Shown: in pieces, positions 4,036 through 21,690 of the stretch
How the letters are laid out: every line of letters begins with the position of its first letter
How positions within the stretch are numbered: the first letter of the stretch is position 1
Origin: an uncultured Caryophanales bacterium
GTDB taxonomy: Bacteria > Bacillota_I > Bacilli_A > RF39 > UBA660
Direction of reading: 5' to 3'
Assembly (NCBI GenBank): GCA_947168965.1
Contig: CAMVNW010000006.1
Coordinates: 1 to 45,829, forward strand
DNA: 45,829 nucleotides
Program-made: the position numbers and the translations under genes
The notes under the pieces: model-generated
The model's database searches: none
Seen by the model: the letters and a program-made list of their open reading frames with translations, nothing else
Told to the model about the DNA's origin: nothing

Positions 4036-4127
4036 TTGTTACACCTCTATTGTAATAAGTTTACCATATTTATATTTTTTTTACTATAATTTTTTTAATT
4101 AAAAAAGTTTAGAGTGTTTCTAAACTA
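4036..4127. repeat. Intergenic repeat, copy 2
   Basis: This copy joins the 3' end of the EamA gene to the 5' end of the 815-codon gene. It contains the hairpin at 4106-4126, the AT-rich arm, and a leader with GAGGTGTAA that serves as ribosome site for the 815-codon gene. The leader part matches copy 3 closely (compare TTACACCTCTATTG in both on the plus strand). Confidence 0.7.
4101..4126 (-). terminator. Intrinsic terminator after the EamA transporter gene
   Basis: The hairpin AGTTTAGA/TCTAAACT at 4106-4126, with a T-run on the minus strand, overlaps the TAG stop codon at 4125-4127. Confidence 0.8.
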
Positions 4128-5030: not shown

Positions 5031-5118
5031 TTACACCTCTATTGCCATAAGTTTATCATATTTATATTTTTTTTACTATATTTTTTTAATAAAAAAAGTT
5101 TAGAGTGTTTCTAAACTA
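5031..5118. repeat. Intergenic repeat, copy 3
   Basis: This is the third copy of the intergenic block. It links the spmB stop codon to the leader ORF of the EamA gene and again contains the ribosome site GAGGTGTAAT, the AT-rich arm and the hairpin at 5097-5117. Confidence 0.7.
5091..5117 (-). terminator. Intrinsic terminator of the dacB-spmA-spmB operon
   Basis: The hairpin AGTTTAGA/TCTAAACT is followed by a T-run on the minus strand. It overlaps the spmB TAG stop at 5116-5118. Confidence 0.8.
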
Positions 5119-5637
5119 ATTAAACATTATCTTTGTTATTATTATTGCGGATATTATTCCTATTAGGTCTGCAAGTAGTCCTGCTTTTAAGGCATATTTT
5201 GTTTTTTTTATTCCTATACTTCCAAAGTATAGTGTTATTATATATAGTGTTGTGTCTGTTGAGCCTTGTATTACTGATGACATTTTACTTATTATGTTTT
5301 CTGGTCCATATGTTTCTATTATTGTTTGCAGTAGTGCGATTCCGGATCCTCCTGAAATTGGTCTTAGTATAGCGAGTGGAATTATTTCTTTTGGTATTTG
5401 TATTATTTTTAATAATGGGGTTAATAGATTTAGTATAAAGTTTAGTACTCCACTTTTTACAAATATATTTACACCCAGTATCATCCCAAGCATTGTTGGA
5501 AAAAGTTTTAGTGTCATGTCAAATGATTCTTTTGCACCTTCTGTAAATGTGTCATAAACGTTTACTTTTTTCTTTACACCATAGAATATTATTATTAATA
5601 CTATTAGTGGTAGTATTAGATTTGATATGTTTTGCAT
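5116..5637 (-). CDS. spmB: Spore maturation protein B
   Basis: The 173-residue membrane protein carries the nucleoside-recognition (Gate) domain typical of SpmB, seen in the stretch ILRPISGGSGIALLQTIIET and in GSTDTTLYIITLYFGSIGIKK. It has four or five membrane segments and the usual family length. It overlaps the end of spmA by 22 bases and is the last gene of dacB-spmA-spmB, the same order as in Bacillus. There the products act in spore cortex maturation and core dehydration. The precise transport activity of SpmA/SpmB is not established. Confidence 0.95.
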   Translation of the reverse strand: MQNISNLILPLIVLIIIFYGVKKKVNVYDTFTEGAKESFDMTLKLFPTMLGMILGVNIFVKSGVLNFILNLLTPLLKIIQIPKEIIPLAILRPISGGSGIALLQTIIETYGPENIISKMSSVIQGSTDTTLYIITLYFGSIGIKKTKYALKAGLLADLIGIISAIIITKIMFN

Positions 5638-6209
5638 TTTTTATCCTTTCTTTGGAGTATTCTATCTATTATTAGTCCACCTATTGTCGCTGAAAAGGAT
5701 GCTAGAAAACAAGGTAGTATTATTTCTGTTGGATTTTTTGCATTCATATTTAGTGATAGTATTGTTGTTGGAATTATAGTTAGTCCTGTTGTGTTTAGTA
5801 CTAGGAATGTGATCATACTATGTGATGCTTCTTTTTTATTTTTGTTTAGTTCTTGTAATGATTTCATTGTTTTTAGTCCAATTGGAGTTGAAGCATTACC
5901 TAGTCCAAATAGGTTTGCAACTACGTTTGTTGTGATTAGACTTATTGATTCATGGTTTTCTGGTATTTCTGGAAATATTTTTTTCATTATTGGTGATAAT
6001 AGTTTTGATATTTTTTTTAATAGGTTTGATTCTTCTGCTATTTTCATTATCCCTAACCATAAAGCCATTACTGGAAATATTTTTGTTATCATGTTTAGTG
6101 TGGTTTCTGCTCCTTTTATTATTTCTGTACTTATTAGTTCTACATTGTTTGTTAATATACTATAAATAATTCCTAATATTATGAATGATGCCCATATTTT
6201 ATTTATCAT
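5616..6209 (-). CDS. spmA: Spore maturation protein A
   Basis: The 197-residue protein has a nucleoside-recognition-type membrane domain with the SpmA signatures FPVMALWLGIMKIAEESNL, NVVANLFGLGNASTPIGLK and FLVLNTTGLTIIPTTI. It overlaps dacB by 11 bases and spmB by 22 bases, so the three genes are almost certainly co-translated. It acts in the sporulating cell, probably with SpmB in one membrane complex. Confidence 0.96.
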   Translation of the reverse strand: MINKIWASFIILGIIYSILTNNVELISTEIIKGAETTLNMITKIFPVMALWLGIMKIAEESNLLKKISKLLSPIMKKIFPEIPENHESISLITTNVVANLFGLGNASTPIGLKTMKSLQELNKNKKEASHSMITFLVLNTTGLTIIPTTILSLNMNAKNPTEIILPCFLASFSATIGGLIIDRILQRKDKKCKTYQI

Positions 6210-7269
6210 GTTTGAATATTTCCTTTATTTTTTGAAGTAATGATTTTTTTTGTTTTATTTCTTTTTCTTTTGAAAACAGTGGTTCTTTATGTAATAGTTT
6301 ATCTCCTAGGTATATTTCTATATTACCTGCTGTTTCTTTTGGATTTTTTTCTAGGTTATATTTTATTAGAATACTTTCTTCTTCTGTTTCTAATAGCGGA
6401 TATGTATAGTCGTTTTCTATATAGTATTCTAAATTATTATTTGTATCTGGTATATTTATTGTTCCTTTTTTTAATAGTTGATAATTTGTATAGTTATTGA
6501 AGCCATATTCAAATAAGTCTTGGTGGTCTTTAAAGTCATTTCCATCGTTTAGTGTTACTACTGCTAGATTTAGGTTATCTTTTGACGCTGTTGTTACTAG
6601 TGTACGTCTTGCTTTTACTGTGAATCCTGTTTTTCCTCCTGTTGTGTTTTTATATGAAAAAAGTAGTTTATTTTTATTTGTCCATGAGTATATATTTTTA
6701 TCTGTTTCTATTTTATGGTGTTTTGTACCTGTTATTTCTTTAAATTTATCGTTTTTTATTGCATAACTTATTAGTAGTGACATATCGTATGCGGTTGAGA
6801 TGTTTCCTCCATCTTCTTCATCTAGTCCACTAGGGTTTCTAAATAGTGTGTTTTTCATTCCTAATTCTTTGGCTTTATTATTCATTAGGTTTACAAATTC
6901 TTCAGTTGAACCTCCTACATAGTTTGATATTGCGAGAGCTGCATCGTTTCCTGATCTAAGCATTAGTCCATATACTAAGTCTTCTAGGCTTATATGTTCT
7001 CCTTTTTTTATATATATTCCTGAACCATAGGCTTTATCTATTGAATCATTTATTTCTACTACATCATTTAATTTATCTGATTCTATAGCTATTATTGCGG
7101 TCATTATTTTTGATATACTTGCGATACTTCTTTTGTTATGTATATCTTTTGAGTATAGTATTCTTCCTGAATCTGTATCTACTAGTATTGCGGATGTAGC
7201 TGATGTTTCTATAGCTTTAATTCTCACTGGAATTAATAACATAATACATATAATAATAAATTTTTTCAT
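6199..7269 (-). CDS. dacB: Sporulation-type D-alanyl-D-alanine carboxypeptidase (S11 family)
   Basis: This exported serine peptidase trims the terminal D-alanine from peptidoglycan stem peptides. The 356-residue product has a signal peptide (residues 1-19), the SxxK box SISK with catalytic Ser51 and Lys54, the SGN triad at 106-108, and the KTG box at 213-215. The gene order dacB-spmA-spmB identifies it as the spore-cortex enzyme rather than the vegetative DacA. The start ATG has GGTGAAA just upstream. Its first 56 codons and leader are duplicated at 11692-11903, and the helicase cassette now separates this copy from its probable ancestral upstream region, so its promoter may have changed. Confidence 0.94.
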   Translation of the reverse strand: MKKFIIICIMLLIPVRIKAIETSATSAILVDTDSGRILYSKDIHNKRSIASISKIMTAIIAIESDKLNDVVEINDSIDKAYGSGIYIKKGEHISLEDLVYGLMLRSGNDAALAISNYVGGSTEEFVNLMNNKAKELGMKNTLFRNPSGLDEEDGGNISTAYDMSLLISYAIKNDKFKEITGTKHHKIETDKNIYSWTNKNKLLFSYKNTTGGKTGFTVKARRTLVTTASKDNLNLAVVTLNDGNDFKDHQDLFEYGFNNYTNYQLLKKGTINIPDTNNNLEYYIENDYTYPLLETEEESILIKYNLEKNPKETAGNIEIYLGDKLLHKEPLFSKEKEIKQKKSLLQKIKEIFKHDK

Positions 7270-7312
7270 AATTTCACCTAGATAAGTATATGAAAAAAAG
7301 GACTTTTTTAGT
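7101..7312. repeat. Direct repeat, left copy: dacB 5' end, leader and upstream terminator
   Basis: This segment matches 11692-11903 at a constant offset of 4,591 bases. The first ~156 bases (inside dacB) are identical, and the remaining ~56 bases (start codon region, leader, hairpin) have about five mismatches. The two copies bracket the helicase cassette. Confidence 0.9.
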
Positions 7313-7315
7313 CCT
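7293..7315 (-). terminator. Intrinsic terminator at the end of the helicase cassette
   Basis: The hairpin AGGAC/GTCCT with a T-run on the minus strand contains the TAA stop of the 97-codon gene (7308-7310). A sister hairpin at 11884-11906 ends the lipoprotein gene. Confidence 0.8.
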
Positions 7316-7601
7316 CAATTATTTCATTTAAGTACTTCATATCATTACCAATGATATAAACAAAGTCATTACCTAACTTTTCCATTAATTTTAAAATACC
7401 TTTTTCTACATTATTAGGTTCCATTTCAAATAATTCCATATAATTTAATATAATATCATTAATAAAATAAAAATTGTACTTACTAAAAATATTATAAATA
7501 TCCCTAAAATTATTTTCATCTAATCCTTCTAAATAAGAAGAATCATAATTATTATAAACTAAGTCATAATAAAAGTTATCTAAATACTTATCTAAAAACA
7601 T
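7308..7601 (-). CDS. Small acidic hypothetical protein of the helicase cassette
   Basis: The 97-residue product is predicted helical, rich in Tyr, Asn, Asp and Glu, with a net negative charge and no signal or membrane segment. Its ATG overlaps the helicase stop codon by one base (TAATG), so it is translationally coupled to the helicase. I do not recognise a family. An accessory or inhibitor role in the cassette is inference from the coupling only. Confidence 0.75.
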   Translation of the reverse strand: MFLDKYLDNFYYDLVYNNYDSSYLEGLDENNFRDIYNIFSKYNFYFINDIILNYMELFEMEPNNVEKGILKLMEKLGNDFVYIIGNDMKYLNEIIED

Positions 7602-10600
7602 TATTTATTCTTCTCCTTACCATACATATTAACTAAATCTTCTAAACTAACACCATATTTTAATTTCATATTCATACTAGACATAGAAAATATTTCATGT
7701 AATATACCTTTGTCATCAACAATATTCATTCCATTATCTTTTAAATAAGCAAGTTTAACTTTGAATTCAGTAAATGATATATGATTAATAATATTTTTAT
7801 TTTTATTAATATCTATATTATTATTTTTACATAGATCTTCTATATCAGTTTTATTCTTTTTAATATCCCATACCATTCCTATTGATTCAAGCATTGCAAC
7901 TTTTTCTATTGATAAAGGTTTTAACCCACCATATCTTTGTTCAGCAGGTAAACTAATATTTTTATATGCTTTGCGTTGCATCAAAATCCAAGTACCCAAT
8001 TTTTCACCGTCTTCAGTTACAAATCTTTGTGGTACCTCTAAATTTCCATGTTTGTCATAATATTCTTGTGCAAGTTTATACATTTTGTTCCATTTTGAAT
8101 CATAGACATCCCATACCATTCCTATCGTTTCTAATTTTTTTACTTGTCCTTCAAGCAATGGAGTGGCGCCATGTGCCCACTTTTCTCTTGGTAAACCAAT
8201 ATTAGCATATGCTGTTCTTTGTCTCTGAAGCCAAGCTCCGAGCTTATCCCCATCGATAGTCTTGTATCTTAATGGAATTTCTAAATTTCCATGAGAAACA
8301 TAGTATTTTGTTGCCAATTCATACCATTCATCCCATGAAAACATTTTTGATTCAAATTGCATACCTATTTTTTTCAATTTGTCAATCTGTTGTTCAGTTA
8401 AATTTCCTGATTTATATGACTGCCTCTGTCGATGAATCCACTGACCTAGTTTTTCACCATTTTCTGTTATATAACTATTTGTTAATAACAAATTCCCATG
8501 TTCATTATTATATTCTTGTGCTAACTTATACCATTCATCCCAGGTTAATGTACTAATTTTATTATCACACCGCATTCCTAGTTGACCTAATTTAATAATC
8601 TGATCATTAGGCATTTTACCATTCTTTAATAATGTTCTTTGTCGGTGGATCCATATGCCTAAAGTATATCCATCTTCAGTAATAAATCTTGCAGGTACCT
8701 CTAAATTCCCATGTTCATCAAAATATTTCTGTGCAATCCTGTACATTTCTTCCCATTTTGACTCATAAACATTCCATACCATTCCTATAGATTCTAGCAT
8801 AGATACTTGCTCATCTGTTAAAGGTTTATTGCTTGTTTTTCTTTGTTCACCAGATTTACCCCTATTTTTATATGCTTGTCTTTGACTACCAATCCATGTT
8901 CCTAATTTTTCACCATTTGATGCAATATATCTATGTGGAATATTTAAATCTCCATTTTGATAAAAATATTCTTCTGCCAACCTAAACATACTTTCCCAAT
9001 TATCATCATTTAAGTCCCATTTTATGCCTATAGAAATCAATAAATCTATTTGTTTTTCAGTTAATTCTCCTTTTTTAAACTTTTGTCTTTGACGATAAAC
9101 CCAATCTCCTAAGCCATGACCTTCCTCAGTCTTAAATCTATTTGAAACATTCAAATTTCCATGTTCTTTATAATATTTTTCCGCAAGCCTATACATTTTA
9201 TTCCAGAATGAATCTATAGGATTCCATACCATTCCTATATTTTCTAACATAAACACTTGCTCATCAGTTAATGGATTATATTTGTTTTTGATTTTTCCAA
9301 CAGATATGTCTCTATATTTATATGCAATACGTTGTGTTGCTATCCATTGACCTAATTTCTCACCATTTGATGCAACATACTTTACAGGAATATTTAAATC
9401 TCCATATTGTTCATAATATTCTTTAGCCAACTCATACATTTTTTCCCATCTAAAATCAAGTACATCCCATATCATTCCTATACTTTCTAACTTATAAACT
9501 TGTTCGTCAGTTAATATTCCTATCTTACCTTTCCTAAAATGTAACGGTAAATCTCTATTTTTATATTTTCTTCTTTGTATTCCAATCCATCGTCCCAATT
9601 TCTCACCAGTTGTAATGATATAACCTTTAGAAACATCTAAATTACCATGTTCTTTATAATAATCTCCAGCTAACTTATACCAGTCATCCCAAGTCATTTC
9701 AGTTTTTTGTTTTAAATTCATTAATATATTAAATAATTCAACTTCATATATATCCAAATCAAATGATGCTTCAGATAAAAATCTCTTGTTTATTGTTCCA
9801 TTACCTTTTTCTTGATATTCTTTAATTCTATCTTTTAAATTATCTTCTAATTCTCTAATAAAATCTATATTACCAGCTAAATCAATTATAACTGGCGCTA
9901 CTAATTTTTCTATTAGTTCATTCCTATCCATATCATAGTTATAATTAATACTTTTTTGTGAACACATTAGTCTTAATCTTTCAATTGAATATGTACTATA
10001 TAATTCTATTTTTTCTTTTACCCCACTACTTACAGATAAAGCTCTGCCTAATTGTTCAAAGAAGACTATATCAGAACATGTACCTCTTCCCATTATAACT
10101 CCATCAAGATTAGGTGCATGTACTCCTTCATTATATTGATTAATCGCAAACATTACTCTTAATTTATTATCTACTTTATTACCTTCTAAATCTAAATCAT
10201 CATAAAACGCATCACGATTAGATTTTCCACCATCTTCCATTTCACTTAAAGATGTATAAATAACTATATCTTCTTCAGGAACAATCTCTTTAAACCAAGA
10301 TATTGCCTCTTTCTTGATAGTCTCTATATCATTAGTTTCTTCTTCACCTGCAGGTGGACAGAAATAGATATACTTACCATTTTTCTTAACATTCTGTTTA
10401 ACAACTTCACCTAAGCTTGGGGCTTCATGAATTCTTTTTTTAACATCATTTAATATCTTATTATATTCTGAACATTCTCTTCCTGATGCCTCTAATTTCT
10501 TAACTCTCCCTTCTAATTGACTGGCCATATCAATTAGTTTAATATATGAACTTTTATAAACAGGTTTAGGCAATACTCCATCAATCATCGCATCACATAA

Positions 10601-11134
10601 ATCATATCTACTTACAATATTATTTGAGAATAATTCATCACCTTCATCTAAAGCCATATCTCTTTCATAAGATGTTCCTCTATCTCTTACAGTATAAGCA
10701 GTCATTCCAAATACTTTAATATCCGGGTGAGTTTCAATTATTGAATCAATTCTCGAACCCCATACAGGAGCACCTGTGTGATGGAATTCATCAAGTATTA
10801 ACATATCAACATTTAAATCAGCTATTTCTTCAGAATTTGAATTAACAAAACTTTGATATGTTCTTAATTCCAGATTAGGAAAATCTCTCTCCATATCTAA
10901 ATTAGGATTATCATTAATTGTTTTTAAAATATGTTCTACAATTGAATTACTAGGTACTACCCATACAGTTTTTAAATCTTTATTATCATAAGCAAGTTGT
11001 AATGCATTATAACTCTTACCAGTTCCTGTTGCATGAACTATTCCAACTACATTATTTTCTTTAAATGCTTCTCTTACTTTTCTATAAGATTCTGCATTAT
11101 GTTCATATAATCCAACTTTATCAAACTCATTCAT
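7601..11134 (-). CDS. SF2 DEAD/DEAH-type helicase with eight C-terminal helicase-associated (HA) repeats
   Basis: The 1177-residue product opens with a ResIII-like SF2 core. Motif I is ATGTGKS at residues 35-41, motif II is DEFH at 115-118, motif III is in GMTAYT, and motif VI lies in EQLGRALS. A coiled segment follows. From about residue 481 to 1090 there are eight tandem units of roughly 70-80 residues with the pattern W..MY.LA..YY..HGNL.VP.R, then G..LG.W...QR, then L..IGM.W, the HA repeat (PF03457 type). A 60-80-residue tail ends the protein. No nuclease or methylase domain is visible, so this is not a complete restriction system. It is coupled to small genes on both sides, and a nucleic-acid-translocating defence or element-maintenance role is inference. 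Confidence 0.9.
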   Translation of the reverse strand: MNEFDKVGLYEHNAESYRKVREAFKENNVVGIVHATGTGKSYNALQLAYDNKDLKTVWVVPSNSIVEHILKTINDNPNLDMERDFPNLELRTYQSFVNSNSEEIADLNVDMLILDEFHHTGAPVWGSRIDSIIETHPDIKVFGMTAYTVRDRGTSYERDMALDEGDELFSNNIVSRYDLCDAMIDGVLPKPVYKSSYIKLIDMASQLEGRVKKLEASGRECSEYNKILNDVKKRIHEAPSLGEVVKQNVKKNGKYIYFCPPAGEEETNDIETIKKEAISWFKEIVPEEDIVIYTSLSEMEDGGKSNRDAFYDDLDLEGNKVDNKLRVMFAINQYNEGVHAPNLDGVIMGRGTCSDIVFFEQLGRALSVSSGVKEKIELYSTYSIERLRLMCSQKSINYNYDMDRNELIEKLVAPVIIDLAGNIDFIRELEDNLKDRIKEYQEKGNGTINKRFLSEASFDLDIYEVELFNILMNLKQKTEMTWDDWYKLAGDYYKEHGNLDVSKGYIITTGEKLGRWIGIQRRKYKNRDLPLHFRKGKIGILTDEQVYKLESIGMIWDVLDFRWEKMYELAKEYYEQYGDLNIPVKYVASNGEKLGQWIATQRIAYKYRDISVGKIKNKYNPLTDEQVFMLENIGMVWNPIDSFWNKMYRLAEKYYKEHGNLNVSNRFKTEEGHGLGDWVYRQRQKFKKGELTEKQIDLLISIGIKWDLNDDNWESMFRLAEEYFYQNGDLNIPHRYIASNGEKLGTWIGSQRQAYKNRGKSGEQRKTSNKPLTDEQVSMLESIGMVWNVYESKWEEMYRIAQKYFDEHGNLEVPARFITEDGYTLGIWIHRQRTLLKNGKMPNDQIIKLGQLGMRCDNKISTLTWDEWYKLAQEYNNEHGNLLLTNSYITENGEKLGQWIHRQRQSYKSGNLTEQQIDKLKKIGMQFESKMFSWDEWYELATKYYVSHGNLEIPLRYKTIDGDKLGAWLQRQRTAYANIGLPREKWAHGATPLLEGQVKKLETIGMVWDVYDSKWNKMYKLAQEYYDKHGNLEVPQRFVTEDGEKLGTWILMQRKAYKNISLPAEQRYGGLKPLSIEKVAMLESIGMVWDIKKNKTDIEDLCKNNNIDINKNKNIINHISFTEFKVKLAYLKDNGMNIVDDKGILHEIFSMSSMNMKLKYGVSLEDLVNMYGKEKNK

Positions 11135-11137
11135 AAT

Positions 11138-11374
11138 CTACACCTCAATATCTGTATATTCTATCCCATCAATAACTTGTTTAGTGATAACTACTTCATC
11201 ATCTTTCATAATCTGAACATTGAATTCATTCTGTTCAAACTCAAAACTTTGAATACTGTCATCAATTAATACTTTAAATCCAATAACATTTCTATCCATT
11301 ATATCTAATAATTGTCCATTTTTATATTGTTCTGGAATATAAACTTCCTTAACGATTCCATAAAGTTTTTCCAC
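11138..11374 (-). CDS. Small beta-rich hypothetical protein, first gene of the helicase cassette
   Basis: The 78-residue product probably starts at a GTG (11374) preceded by AGGATGTGAT. It has alternating hydrophobic and charged residues typical of a small beta-sheet protein, with no signal peptide. Its stop lies three bases before the helicase start, and the helicase ribosome site (GAGGTG) sits at its 3' end. I do not recognise a family. Confidence 0.7.
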   Translation of the reverse strand: MEKLYGIVKEVYIPEQYKNGQLLDIMDRNVIGFKVLIDDSIQSFEFEQNEFNVQIMKDDEVVITKQVIDGIEYTDIEV

Positions 11375-11414
11375 ACTATCACATCCTGAGATAATTATAA
11401 CAAAAATAAAGAAA

Positions 11415-11450
11415 TAAAAAAAGAATATTAATTTTGAAAGTTAATATTCT
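11415..11450 (-). terminator. Intrinsic terminator after a decayed gene
   Basis: The inverted repeat AGAATATTAA/TTAATATTCT at 11422-11450, followed by a T-run on the minus strand, lies just past the last readable codons of the remnant described at 11428-11695. Confidence 0.65.
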
Positions 11451-11695
11451 CATTAACAACACTTTGTTCTTGATTAATCTCTCTTTTATTAGACTTAGGC
11501 TCATTATTAAGTATAATAAACGAAAATATCTTAATTATCTCTTCATAATCATAAATTATTTATGGAAAATTCGTTATGTTCATCATGATTAAATAGTTAT
11601 AATTTTTATATTTGTGTAATAAATTGTTTTATATTCATCAGTACATATATTATTGATATTCCTTGTATATTCATTATTCATTACTATGTAGTCAT
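11428..11695 (-). pseudogene. Decayed coding remnant between the cassette and the dacB fragment
   Basis: Three short stretches that read like protein lie in successive frames on the minus strand: one with [14 protein letters not shown], one with NHDEHNEFSINN, and one with YDYEEIIKIFSFIILNNEP that ends at a TAA (11428-11430). They are separated by stops and frame changes, and a terminator hairpin overlaps the end. This looks like an inactivated gene whose 5' end has been replaced by the dacB fragment. AT-rich DNA easily gives spurious short frames, so the call is tentative. Confidence 0.35.
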
Positions 11696-11860
11696 TATTT
11701 TTGATATACTTGCGATACTTCTTTTGTTATGTATATCTTTTGAGTATAGTATTCTTCCTGAATCTGTATCTACTAGTATTGCGGATGTAGCTGATGTTTC
11801 TATAGCTTTAATTCTCACTGGAATTAATAACATAATACATATAATAATTAGTTTTTTCAT
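11684..11860 (-). pseudogene. Truncated second copy of dacB (58 codons)
   Basis: The ATG at 11860 keeps the dacB ribosome site. The frame reproduces dacB residues 1-57 (Phe4 is Leu here), including the signal peptide and the SISK active-site box, and ends at a TAG immediately after the homology breaks off. It lacks the SGN and KTG boxes and therefore cannot be an active peptidase. If expressed it would give an exported or membrane-held 58-residue peptide. Confidence 0.85.
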
Positions 11861-11903
11861 AATTTCACCTATATGAGTATATGAAAAAAAGGACTTGTTT
11901 AGT
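11692..11903. repeat. Direct repeat, right copy: dacB 5' end, leader and hairpin
   Basis: This is the partner of 7101-7312. It adjoins the lipoprotein gene and carries that gene's terminator, and so probably marks the ancestral position of the dacB 5' end. Confidence 0.9.
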
Positions 11904-11906
11904 CCT
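11884..11906 (-). terminator. Intrinsic terminator after the chagasin-like lipoprotein gene
   Basis: The hairpin AGGAC/GTCCT with a T-run on the minus strand lies nine bases after the gene's stop codon. Confidence 0.75.
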
Positions 11907-11914
11907 ATTAATTT

Positions 11915-12295
11915 CTAATCTTTTATATTAGCAACTAATGATATATTTTTATTTTTGTCTACTTTGATATTGAGTTTTTCTTCTTTTTCTATTGTTCCAT
12001 CTATTATGTTTACATATTTAAATGTGATTGTTGTTGTTCCTTTTTTTAGTCCTTTAAATACATAATTTATACTTATTGGGGAACCAACCATATTGTTATT
12101 ATTGTTTCCTATTTCATAACTTTTTACGAATTCTACTATATTTTTATCTTCTATTTCGTATTTCCACTCGTATGGTACTCCTCCATTTGTATTGTATGTT
12201 AGTTCTAATGTTTTTTCTTCATTATTTATTAGGCAGGCTGTTAATCCAAGAATTAGTCCTATTATGAATAGAATTATAAATATTATTTTTTTCAT
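11915..12295 (-). CDS. Chagasin-like (I42 family) lipoprotein, putative cysteine-protease inhibitor
   Basis: The 126-residue product has a lipoprotein signal with lipobox LTAC (Cys21). The mature part resembles the I42 immunoglobulin-like inhibitor fold: a first loop in NTNGGVPYEWKYEIEDKN where chagasin has NPTTG, the core strand SPISINYVFKGLKKGTTTIT, and a closing strand. The third chagasin loop (RPW) is not evident. Family inhibitors block papain-like cysteine peptidases. This one would act on the outer face of the membrane. The family call is by pattern only. Confidence 0.6.
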   Translation of the reverse strand: MKKIIFIILFIIGLILGLTACLINNEEKTLELTYNTNGGVPYEWKYEIEDKNIVEFVKSYEIGNNNNNMVGSPISINYVFKGLKKGTTTITFKYVNIIDGTIEKEEKLNIKVDKNKNISLVANIKD

Positions 12296-15202: not shown

Positions 15203-15231
15203 TTGACTTTGATAATATAATGTGTTAAAAT
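15203..15231 (+). promoter_or_regulatory. Sigma-A promoter for antisense RNA 1
   Basis: TTGACT (15203-15208) and TAAAAT (15226-15231) are separated by exactly 17 bases. The predicted start is near 15238. Confidence 0.8.
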
Positions 15232-15237
15232 GTATGT

Positions 15238-15353
15238 AGTGAGGAAATTCTTCATACAATAAAAAAGGGAACATTCAGTTTTTGCATGTTGAATGTCTAC
15301 CCTAAATTTAATAAGGTTGACATTTAAGCTATGTGCTTAAGTGTCATTTTTTT
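15238..15353 (+). ncRNA. Candidate antitoxin RNA 1 of a type I toxin-antitoxin locus
   Basis: A transcript from the plus-strand promoter would run about 115 nucleotides to a strong intrinsic terminator with stem TGACATTTAAGC/GCTTAAGTGTCA (15318-15346) and a T-run. It carries no credible ORF. It overlaps the 3' part of the oppositely oriented toxin mRNA, including the toxin stop codon, so the two RNAs share more than 80 bases of perfect antisense complementarity. The arrangement matches the convergent txpA/RatA type. Confidence 0.75.
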
Positions 15354-17350: not shown

Positions 17351-17548
17351 ATATTTTTTTACAAAGAAAGCTAAGCGTTTTGTTACTTCTACTCCTTTAT
17401 ATTCTTCATCTTCAAATTCTACTATATCTCCTTGTTTTAGTGATTCATCTAGTATGTTTTTTTTATATAGTTCATATACTTTTTTTTGTTTATCTACTAT
17501 TTTTCCATTATATCCATCATATTCAGTGATAACTCCTACTGTTTTCAT
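17339..17548 (-). CDS. Small cold-shock/OB-fold-like protein
   Basis: The 69-residue product has the short alternating pattern of a five-strand barrel: GVITEYDGYNGKIVDKQKKV, then YKKNILDESLKQGDIVEFED, then EVTKRLAFFVKKY. This is like small cold-shock-domain relatives that are C-terminally linked to low-GC Firmicutes regulators. The classic RNP1/RNP2 aromatic motifs are not clear, so nucleic-acid binding is uncertain. Its start overlaps the 3' end of the 1111-codon gene by 26 bases, with GGAG as ribosome site inside that gene. Confidence 0.6.
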   Translation of the reverse strand: MKTVGVITEYDGYNGKIVDKQKKVYELYKKNILDESLKQGDIVEFEDEEYKGVEVTKRLAFFVKKYKDN

Positions 17549-20500
17549 TTTTTAACTCCAATCTATTGTTTATATCATTTAGTACCTCTTCATTTTGTCT
17601 ATATTTATCAAGTACAAATGTATCTATTATTTCTTCTTTATATTTTAATATATAGTATTGGTTATTGGAGATACATGAAATACTTTCTATATCATATTCT
17701 TGATCATTTATTTCAATATCTTCTATTGGTACTCCATTTAATAATTGATTAATTGCGTGTAGTTGTTTTATTTTCTTTATTGCATCTTCTTTATAATATG
17801 TTTTAATATTTTTATTTATAGTATATAATTCTGTTTCATTTTTTCCTAATTTTATTTCTTTTAATTCTCCGTTATTTGATAATACAATTCCTTTAAAATT
17901 ATCACTATTTTCATAGTTAAAGTTTAATCCATACATTGCTTCTTTTCTATTTGTCGTGATTTGTTTTAGTTTTTCTTTTTCTTTTTCCATCGCATAATCA
18001 CTTGTTATTAGTATGTTTTCTATTGGGTATTCACTTTTTCTTGTATAGTTTTCTAATAACTGTGTTACTATTTGATTTACTTCTATTAAATCTTCATTTG
18101 TATATTCTTTTAGTACACTATTTCTTAATTCATTTTCAAATATGGTATTTCCATTTCTTATTCCACTTACTCTTGATATAAATTTGTCAGTTGGTGTTTT
18201 AAATATTATATTAAATCCATTCTTATTTGTTAGTATAAACTCCCATAGGTCTCTGAATGCACCTTTTGATCTTAAGCAAGCATTTGTTCTTTCACCGACT
18301 GTTAGATTTGTAAAGTCTAATGGTTGTCCTATTTCTATTTTTATTTGTTTTCCATTTTTTAAGGTTATTGTCTCATTAATTGGTGGAATTGTAAGGTAAT
18401 GTTTATCATACATTTTTGGAATTACTTCTAATATATTATTTAATCTTACTTGTACTGTTGAACTTGCTCTATTTGTTCCTGTGTTTGAAAATATTAGTTT
18501 GAAGTCTTCATCCCCAATTAATATTGCATATTTATTTGATGTAATTTCATGGCAATATCCTTCTTCTAGTAATTTTGTCATTGTGTGATTTTCTATGAAT
18601 TTTTTTTGTTTTTCTCCTGTACATTCGTATTCATTATATAGTTTATAGAAACAATTTATGAATCCTGCTATTGCTTGGGAGCCAATATTTAAATCAATAT
18701 CATCTATTACTGGATAAAATGTTTGTCCAAATCCTAGATACTTATGTTTATTAAGTATTTCTAATAGTGTTCTGTATGTTTCTTCACTTGTTAGTAGTTT
18801 TTCTTTTATACATTTTATATCTATTTGTGATAATATTTCTATTAAGTAATCACTCTTTACTTTTTTAAAGGAATATATGTATTCTGCATTTTCTTTTTCT
18901 TCTTCTGGTATGTCATTTAATTGTTCTTTTTCATACAAAATGTTTAATATTTCATTAAATACTTTTAAATTTTTTCTTTCTATTTTTTTTAAAATTTCTT
19001 CTGTTGGATTCTTTTTAAATTCTATTATGTATTCTAGTTGTTCATTATTTCCTATTAGTTTTTCTTGATCTTCAGTAAGATTATTTGTGACAATTTTTAT
19101 TTTGTTTTTTATTGTATTTGTGTCTTTTACTTGTATATATTTTTTCTGTATCCATTCTTTTTTGAATACTTTATCTAAATCTAGTAATTTTATGAATTCT
19201 GGTGTTCTTATTTTTGAATATTCTTCTCTTTGTATTTCTATATATTGTTGTGTTATTTGATGAAGTATGTCTAGGCTTTTACCATTTTTAATATTTTGAA
19301 ATAATTCTTCTATTGTTATATTATTACTTGTGCATATAATTTGAAGTTTTTTTGGTCTTTTATTAAATACAGTTTCAATTACTCTATCAAATATATCTTT
19401 AAGATTTGTATCATTTTTTGCTAATTGTTCTTCCATTATTGAGAAAATATTGTATGATTCTGATTCAAAAAACATAAATTCTCTTTGTACTACTGATTCA
19501 ATTATTGAGTCTTTTTTATGTGCATCTATTGTTAGATTTTTTTCATTAAACATACATAATATTTTATCTAAGTCTTGGTTATTTGAATTGATTAGTTCTC
19601 TTATGTTTTCGCTGTTAATGTATTTTAATATTTGATATCCAAATTTATTTATTATTTCTTTTAGATTTTTTTCGTTTAGTTCTTCATATTTTGATATTAA
19701 TTTTATAAGTGTATCACAGTTAACTTCTTCTTTATTGCATTCTATATCATGGTTTAGATTTTCAAAGTATTCAATTATTCGTGTTACTGTTTTTTTCTTT
19801 TCTATATCATTTTCTATTTCTTTATCTTTGGTTATTAAAACTTCATCAATACAGTTTAGCATCGTTTCTTTTGCGAGATATCCTGCAATTTTTAATGAAT
19901 CGAATCTATCATCATTAATTATATATTCTCTAAATTCTTTTCTTCTTTCTTGTTTTGGTATTGTTTGTATATAGTTTGACAATATTATTTCTAAATTATT
20001 TAAATCTATTTCAATATATAGTTTGTCTATAAATTCTTTTTTTCTATCTTTACTTGTCTTTTTTATAAGTTGTACTATTTCAATATTTTTTATATTTTCA
20101 TATTCATTTTCTATTAATAAATCAAATGCTTTAAATGAATCATTTTCATTTAGGTTATTTATTAAGGTATGTAAGTTAACATGTTCTTTTTTAAAATTTG
20201 GTAATTTAATTATTTCTTCAAATATTTCTATTTTGTTTTCTATATTATTTAACACTTTAAATTCTTGAATAAAATTATACTTATCCATTAACTCTAGTAC
20301 TTTTATATATTGTTCTTTTTTTAAAGTTTTAAAAATCATTTCGATTTTAAAATTTAACCCTATTATACTATATTTTTTTTCTGGATTTTTTTCTAGGGCT
20401 TCATCTAATACTTCTAGCGCTGCATCTATATTTTTAAATGATAATATTATTTCTTCATATTTTATAAAATAATAATCAGCGCTATTATCTAGTATATATT

Positions 20501-21537: not shown

Positions 21538-21566
21538 TTGATTTTTTTATTTTTATGTGTTAGAAT
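21538..21566 (+). promoter_or_regulatory. Sigma-A promoter for antisense RNA 2
   Basis: TTGATT (21538-21543) and TAGAAT (21561-21566) with a 17-base spacer. The region from the -10 box onward closely resembles the corresponding part of locus 1. Confidence 0.8.
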
Positions 21567-21572
21567 GTATTT

Positions 21573-21690
21573 AGTGAAGGCATTCTTCATATAATAAAAA
21601 AGGGAATACTTAACTTGTCAATGTTGAGTACTCGCCTTAATGTTTAAGTTTGAGTACTTAATCTATTGCAGATTGAGTACTATTTTTTTA
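21573..21690 (+). ncRNA. Candidate antitoxin RNA 2 of a type I toxin-antitoxin locus
   Basis: A plus-strand transcript of about 118 nucleotides would end at the terminator with stem AGTACTTAATCT/AGATTGAGTACT (21653-21681) and seven Ts. It overlaps the toxin mRNA 3' region and its stop codon. Sequence and layout parallel RNA 1 (shared ATTCTTCATA, AAAAAAGGGAA), so the two loci are paralogous. Confidence 0.75.

Follow-up and report, generated by a model that had tools for sequence, protein, structure and literature searches.

Two copies of the 5' end of dacB, one in a complete gene and one in a truncated gene, enclose a helicase gene in an uncultured bacterium, and the locus raises the question of how this arrangement arose. 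The DNA analysed here (the window) is contig C6, 45,829 nucleotides long, from a 1.08-Mb genome in 79 contigs, a MAG about 91% complete. In Bacillus, DacB is the mother-cell (sigmaE) carboxypeptidase of spore cortex formation (PMC5376575). Several sporulation genes are interrupted by intervening elements, i.e., sigK by skin, spsM by SPbeta, spoVFB by vfbin, spoVR by vrin and gerE by gin (PMC5595907, PMC4191935). A sequence-only reading of the window had attributed the repeats to single-crossover (Campbell-type) integration of a circular DNA carrying a dacB fragment, or to an element that rebuilds its target.

Results

Positions 7100-7315 and 11691-11906 form a direct repeat of 216 nt (98% identity, offset 4591) that consists of the dacB 5' end and recurs elsewhere in the genome only as short partial matches. 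There are five mismatches and no others (7258, 7260, 7281, 7284 and 7306), and 7100-7257 matches the other copy over 158 nt without a difference. The 0.2-kb repeat reported from the sequence alone is thus real; its length and identity exclude chance, and an assembly artefact is unlikely because three other assemblies show the same architecture. Repeat search and comparison identify copy 1 (11691-11906, minus strand) as the original dacB 5' end, which adjoins the chagasin-like lipoprotein gene of the host and contains the host terminator, a -10-like CATATACT, a ribosome-binding site and dacB codons 1-57. Here the ORF, compared with relatives, is a truncated dacB of 58 codons on the minus strand (11684-11860, start at 11860, TAG stop at 11684), which breaks off with SISKIMTT and the stop where the codons of the active-site SxxK lie. 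By the same methods, copy 2 (7100-7315, minus strand) is the rebuilt 5' end of the intact dacB (6199-7269, minus strand; Peptidase_S11, E=1e-65), with SxxK at codons 51-54, so a complete dacB on one side and a truncated one on the other were correctly recognised. Its CATATACT (7285-7292, minus strand) is a CATANNNT-type -10 that is kept upstream of dacB in most relatives and that we take to be sigmaE/sigmaK-like. The intact dacB is the first gene of an operon and is followed by spmA-like (5616-6209) and spmB-like (5116-5637) genes, both on the minus strand and both with a Gate domain in the profile search.

Over 146 nt of the dacB 5' end, either copy differs from the same-genus genome G002 at 11 positions, while the copies do not differ from each other. 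The duplication, or a conversion between the copies, is therefore younger than the split from G002, which supports the recent date suggested earlier. The direct repeats allow precise loss of the cassette via homologous recombination, and comparison with relatives revealed an empty site in the same genus (G001), with dacB intact, another gene upstream and no cassette. The window has two further repeat families, both intergenic: a three-copy repeat ending in GTTTAGAGTGTTTCTAAACT (72-89%; 1297-1368, 4055-4126 and 5046-5117) and a 90-nt repeat with a promoter-like start (78%; 15203-15292 and 21538-21627).

The cassette between the repeats spans about 7316-11690, and its three main ORFs all lie on the minus strand. 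Its principal cargo is a 1177-aa helicase (7601-11134) with a ResIII/DEAD domain and eight HA (PF03457) repeats in the profile search. The earlier label of a helicase cassette was accurate in this respect but incomplete, since the cassette also holds a 78-aa ORF with a GTG start upstream of the helicase (11138-11374) and a 97-aa ORF downstream of it (7308-7601). The 78-aa helicase partner has homologs in G008, G320, G373, G400, G143 and others. The 97-aa ORF, conserved beside HA helicases in the homolog comparison, takes its last codon and stop from the repeat. No recombinase gene was found between the repeat copies among the ORFs or in the profile search of the cassette, as had been claimed, nor was a second copy of the cassette found in its own genome. 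The composition profile proposed as a check gave a markedly different GC skew over 7.25-11.5 kb. The cargo shares the ResIII core and the eight HA repeats with other HA-repeat helicases, and its matches to PADLOC defence profiles were weak and partial only, so it was rejected as a known defence system; a TcdB_N match of the 97-aa ORF (E=0.006, below the cut-off) was disregarded. In another genus (G367:C10, locus L204), a complete dacB has a homolog of the 97-aa ORF right against its terminator, in a visible region that stops where the contig ends inside the homolog. Because this ORF lies directly upstream of a complete dacB there, the cassette together with the dacB end may be older or transferable.

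At the truncation codon, a pattern match with 0 mismatches located an attL-type junction (11657-11695, minus strand) composed of the dacB core ATGAC and a P' arm (TACATAGTAATGAATAATGAATATACAAGGAATA), i.e., the att half-site of a large serine recombinase (LSR) element. The window, G024 and G027 share a conserved sequence on the element side of the truncated dacB (ATGACTACATAGTGATGAAC...GAATTTACAAGGAATA). Among 386 genomes of the family, the half-site pattern occurred in 11, the window's and 10 others, and in 10 of the 11 it lay in dacB at the same codon, while the reversed pattern, used as a control, gave 0 matches in these 386 genomes. A match in G160, inside an unrelated ORF, was set aside as chance. 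G094, where the half-site is followed by >18 kb of sequence in which neither an LSR nor a dacB 3' part was found, was left out of the counts. A looser pattern extended the family to 17 places in 15 genomes, among them tandem sites and arms of a second subtype. Since 20 or more relatives show that the half-site belongs to an LSR family targeting dacB at this codon, the left end of the cassette was made by site-specific recombination. The LSR-side arm is an inverted repeat of the P' arm (in L155, ATTCATCACTATGTAGTCATAAGGAA... versus ...TTATGACTACATAGTGAT), as expected of attP, and the comparison of attL with attR would place the exchange point on the Lys codon of SxxK or immediately beside it. 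The attL core of the window reads ATAATGAC like the host dacB, whereas other P' arms read ATTATGAC, so that some conversion between the copies must be assumed. One dacB-type half-site stands beside an rluB-like gene near a contig end, without a dacB 5' end (G081:C10:33218). The P' arm also contains a mini-ORF of 30 codons (MNNEYTRNINNICTDEYKTIYYTNIKIITI; 11589-11681, minus strand) conserved in about 12 elements (M-N-x-E-Y-x-R-N-T-x-N-I-C), and this conservation reaches beyond what an att half-site needs; one might speculate that it encodes a directionality factor.

Scans with an alignment of LSRs from four genomes returned 56 genome loci and 8 loci of a viral collection. The domains of an LSR (Resolvase, Recombinase and Zn_ribbon) are present in the relatives tested, e.g., L062, and absent from the window cassette. 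Where the LSR is at least 55% identical (21 loci: L103-L120, L155, L159 and L160), its 3' end is always fused to dacB, whose 3' part begins at codon 46-54, the SxxK region; in L105, where 26 nt of contig follow the LSR, dacB was recognised by eye. Every such locus has a dacB 3' half without the N-terminus, and dacB is therefore broken while the element is present. In G027:C44, for example, an element of 8 kb interrupts dacB at the same codon, and the end of its LSR gene lies in the dacB 3' half. The LSR of L121 (47%) is also fused to dacB; the other relatives are not, except for the SxN-type cases. In these, LSRs of ~47-52% appear to target the SxN codons 106-108, the second active-site motif, of S11 carboxypeptidases (L158:1909-2290 and 11560-12128; L160:3458-3720 and 6860-7742; L121:9449-9720 and 17380-17904), and in L160 and L121 a single gene has stacked insertions, one at SxxK and one at SxN.

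The hosts of the LSRs are uncultured Bacilli, Erysipelotrichaceae MAGs, Candidatus Aphodocola and Candidatus Faecimonas. A small ORF of 36-48 aa is conserved directly before the LSR gene (L103-L120, L155, L159 and L160); it has a weak SHOCT_2 match (E=0.0046) and is a candidate directionality factor or accessory protein. The cargo of the LSR-bearing relatives is of metabolic or modification type, and among the proteins tested no phage structural genes were detected apart from a weak portal-profile match to a NUDIX protein. In the window's own genome, at its completeness of about 91%, no close helper LSR was found, the best (30-32%) being on C38 and C43. On C38 (G000:C38:1-3157, L099), two tandem overlapping LSR genes of another subfamily, 30-31% identical to the dacB LSR, lie beside polysaccharide genes. 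A search of the open-access literature found no publication that describes dacB as an LSR insertion site.

When relatives were searched for dacB, two other genomes turned out to have a short copy of its N-terminal part close to dacB, and pattern searches then separated two states: complete elements with an LSR split dacB (G027, G399, G204 and G085), while those without an LSR have its 5' end duplicated (the window, G024 and G158-A). With L112-A, four LSR-less cassettes were found, all with the duplicated dacB 5' end and with unrelated cargo. Their 5' breakpoints differ, lying about 24, 46, 132 and 190 nt before the dacB ATG, and the identity between a repeat and its own host is 94-98%, while the hosts differ strongly among themselves. 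These two observations together suggest that the second copy is host DNA rather than a packaged module. In G024:C40, which has the same architecture (repeat of 198 nt, 96%), the repeats enclose genes for an HTH/Rep-like protein, a Cro-type regulator and an ABC transporter. Both the -10-like CATANNNT and the ribosome-binding site are gone from the truncated copy there but present in the rebuilt copy, and so selection seems to act on the rebuilt gene. The locus L112 reads, in order, dacB 5' end with arm, element A, LSR stub, 300-nt copy, second arm, element B and dacB 3' part. The stub at the breakpoint of element A is the LSR N-terminus (79-83% to the LSR start, E to 4e-14), joined abruptly to the 300-nt copy (94%), which comprises the tail of the host upstream gene and the dacB 5' end. 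Element B, whose LSR is intact, is inserted into the rebuilt dacB. In L112, therefore, host DNA bringing a dacB 5' end took the place of the recombinase end, and the rebuilt gene then served as a target once more. L112-A is the sole case, since no LSR stub above noise was detected at the breakpoints of the window, G024 and G158-A.

Discussion

We consider it very probable that the window holds an LSR element minus its recombinase and one att site, and that dacB was rebuilt by a host-derived second 5' end. The left junction is site-specific, LSR and attR are lost, and the second 5' copy occupies the place that the P arm and the recombinase gene have in the LSR-bearing elements. In this scheme, an LSR would insert the element into dacB at the SxxK codons, and its attL side, i.e., the host dacB 5' end with the P' arm, would survive at 11657-11906. 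The window cassette itself presumably once carried a dacB-type LSR. In place of the recombinase gene, P arm and attR there would now be a second copy of host origin, comprising the terminator, promoter and first 57 codons of dacB; it would restore a complete dacB and lock in the helicase cargo. This copy probably arrived by recombination with an element-free dacB allele, and a sister chromosome, incoming DNA or a Campbell-type circle as its source would all leave the same final structure. Serine integrases do not recombine attL-type sites with attB (PMC3783163); a direct LSR reaction is thus an unlikely source of the second copy, and a circle with an attL-like junction would itself need homologous recombination. 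Three observations weigh against our reading, namely the lack of an LSR stub at the breakpoint of the window, the host-like core of its attL, and the 97-aa ORF next to a complete dacB in G367.

If such a circle bore the P' arm, the cargo and a fragment of the dacB 5' end, a single homologous crossover within the 216-nt repeat would integrate it and yield exactly the final structure observed, and 158 nt of perfect identity are long enough for RecA where a recombinase is absent. We regard this route as a possible but doubtful origin of the whole locus, because it leaves the LSR half-site unexplained by itself: the circle must first stem from an LSR insertion in dacB, and two copies equidistant from G002 and identical in 146 nt call for a donor of the same species or a later conversion. 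The Campbell-type integration put forward by the sequence-only reading therefore fails for the left end, which is an LSR half-site junction, and is retained as a candidate for the later replacement of the 5' end only. Its other proposal, an element that rebuilds its target, was essentially right, dacB being intact via the second 5' end.

It is unlikely that the LSR-less cassette is a satellite mobilised in trans, which would bring its own dacB 5' end to restore the target and would depend on an LSR gene located elsewhere. Restoring modules are known in other integrative elements, such as SXT at prfC, and the same 97-aa ORF abuts dacB in G367. Such a satellite would nevertheless form a circle with an attL-type site instead of attP, its own genome (about 91% complete) offers no LSR closer than 30-32%, and the four rebuilt loci, with their different cargo and 5' breakpoints and their host-matched repeats, do not resemble a packaged module. 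Direct repeats alone would also be compatible with a tandem duplication of the dacB 5' region plus an unrelated helicase insertion, or with an assembly artefact; either is highly improbable, given that the conserved P' arm lies precisely at the codon of truncation and that the architecture recurs in three other assemblies.

The genome, from an uncultured bacterium of gut type that would form spores, has spo0A and spoIVA matches. Gpr-like and spoIIP-like ORFs were recognised in the window by eye. The presence of spo0A and spoIVA strengthens the likeness to sporulation-gene intervening elements of the skin/gin type. In the relatives, an LSR-encoded element splits a sporulation gene at a short core, here at SxxK of dacB, which forms an operon with spmA/spmB, and in-frame restoration on excision is expected; as with gin, none of the proteins checked in the LSR-bearing relatives was recognised as belonging to a phage or a conjugation system. 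By analogy, the dacB LSR family may work like skin, vfbin, vrin and gin, although its target is not mentioned in the reports on those elements (PMC5595907, PMC4191935). In relatives with an intact element, LSR excision would be the only way to restore the split dacB, and the mother cell of a sporulating host the most likely place for it; sporulation genes and a CATANNNT -10 were the observations made in this respect. The window copy is not a working member of the family, because its cassette encodes no LSR and its dacB is unsplit, restored by 5' duplication.

Two further classes of elements offer partial parallels. CIMEs, known from the ICE/IME literature, are likewise remnants without recombination genes next to an att site. 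They keep both attL and attR, whereas in the window attR is gone and an intact attB-bearing gene stands in its place. SXT, inserted in the 5' end of prfC, likewise leaves the gene intact while exchanging its 5' end, and elements of this type carry the replacement segment in the att region. The 5' copy described here, in contrast, appears host-derived and is confined to LSR-less derivatives; breakpoints and sequences that differ among the four loci argue against an identical element-borne segment, while G367 leaves some doubt.

For the family as a whole, we lean slightly towards a dacB LSR family widespread in small-genome uncultured Bacilli, with developmental excision, recurrent loss of the recombinase with rebuilding of dacB, and stepwise accumulation of cargo before dacB. 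Under this reading, the crossover would fall at or next to the catalytic Lys codon, and each rebuilt dacB would regenerate the site for further insertions.

Conclusions

These findings add dacB to the genes that are interrupted by LSR elements in spore formers, with an att site tied to codons that are unable to change without killing the enzyme. They point to an evolutionary exit from the intervening state, in which the recombinase is lost, the gene is rebuilt and the cargo is left behind, and the four parallel cases allow a test of selection on dacB restoration. These cases also offer a genomic approach to sporulation in lineages that metagenomes alone have revealed.
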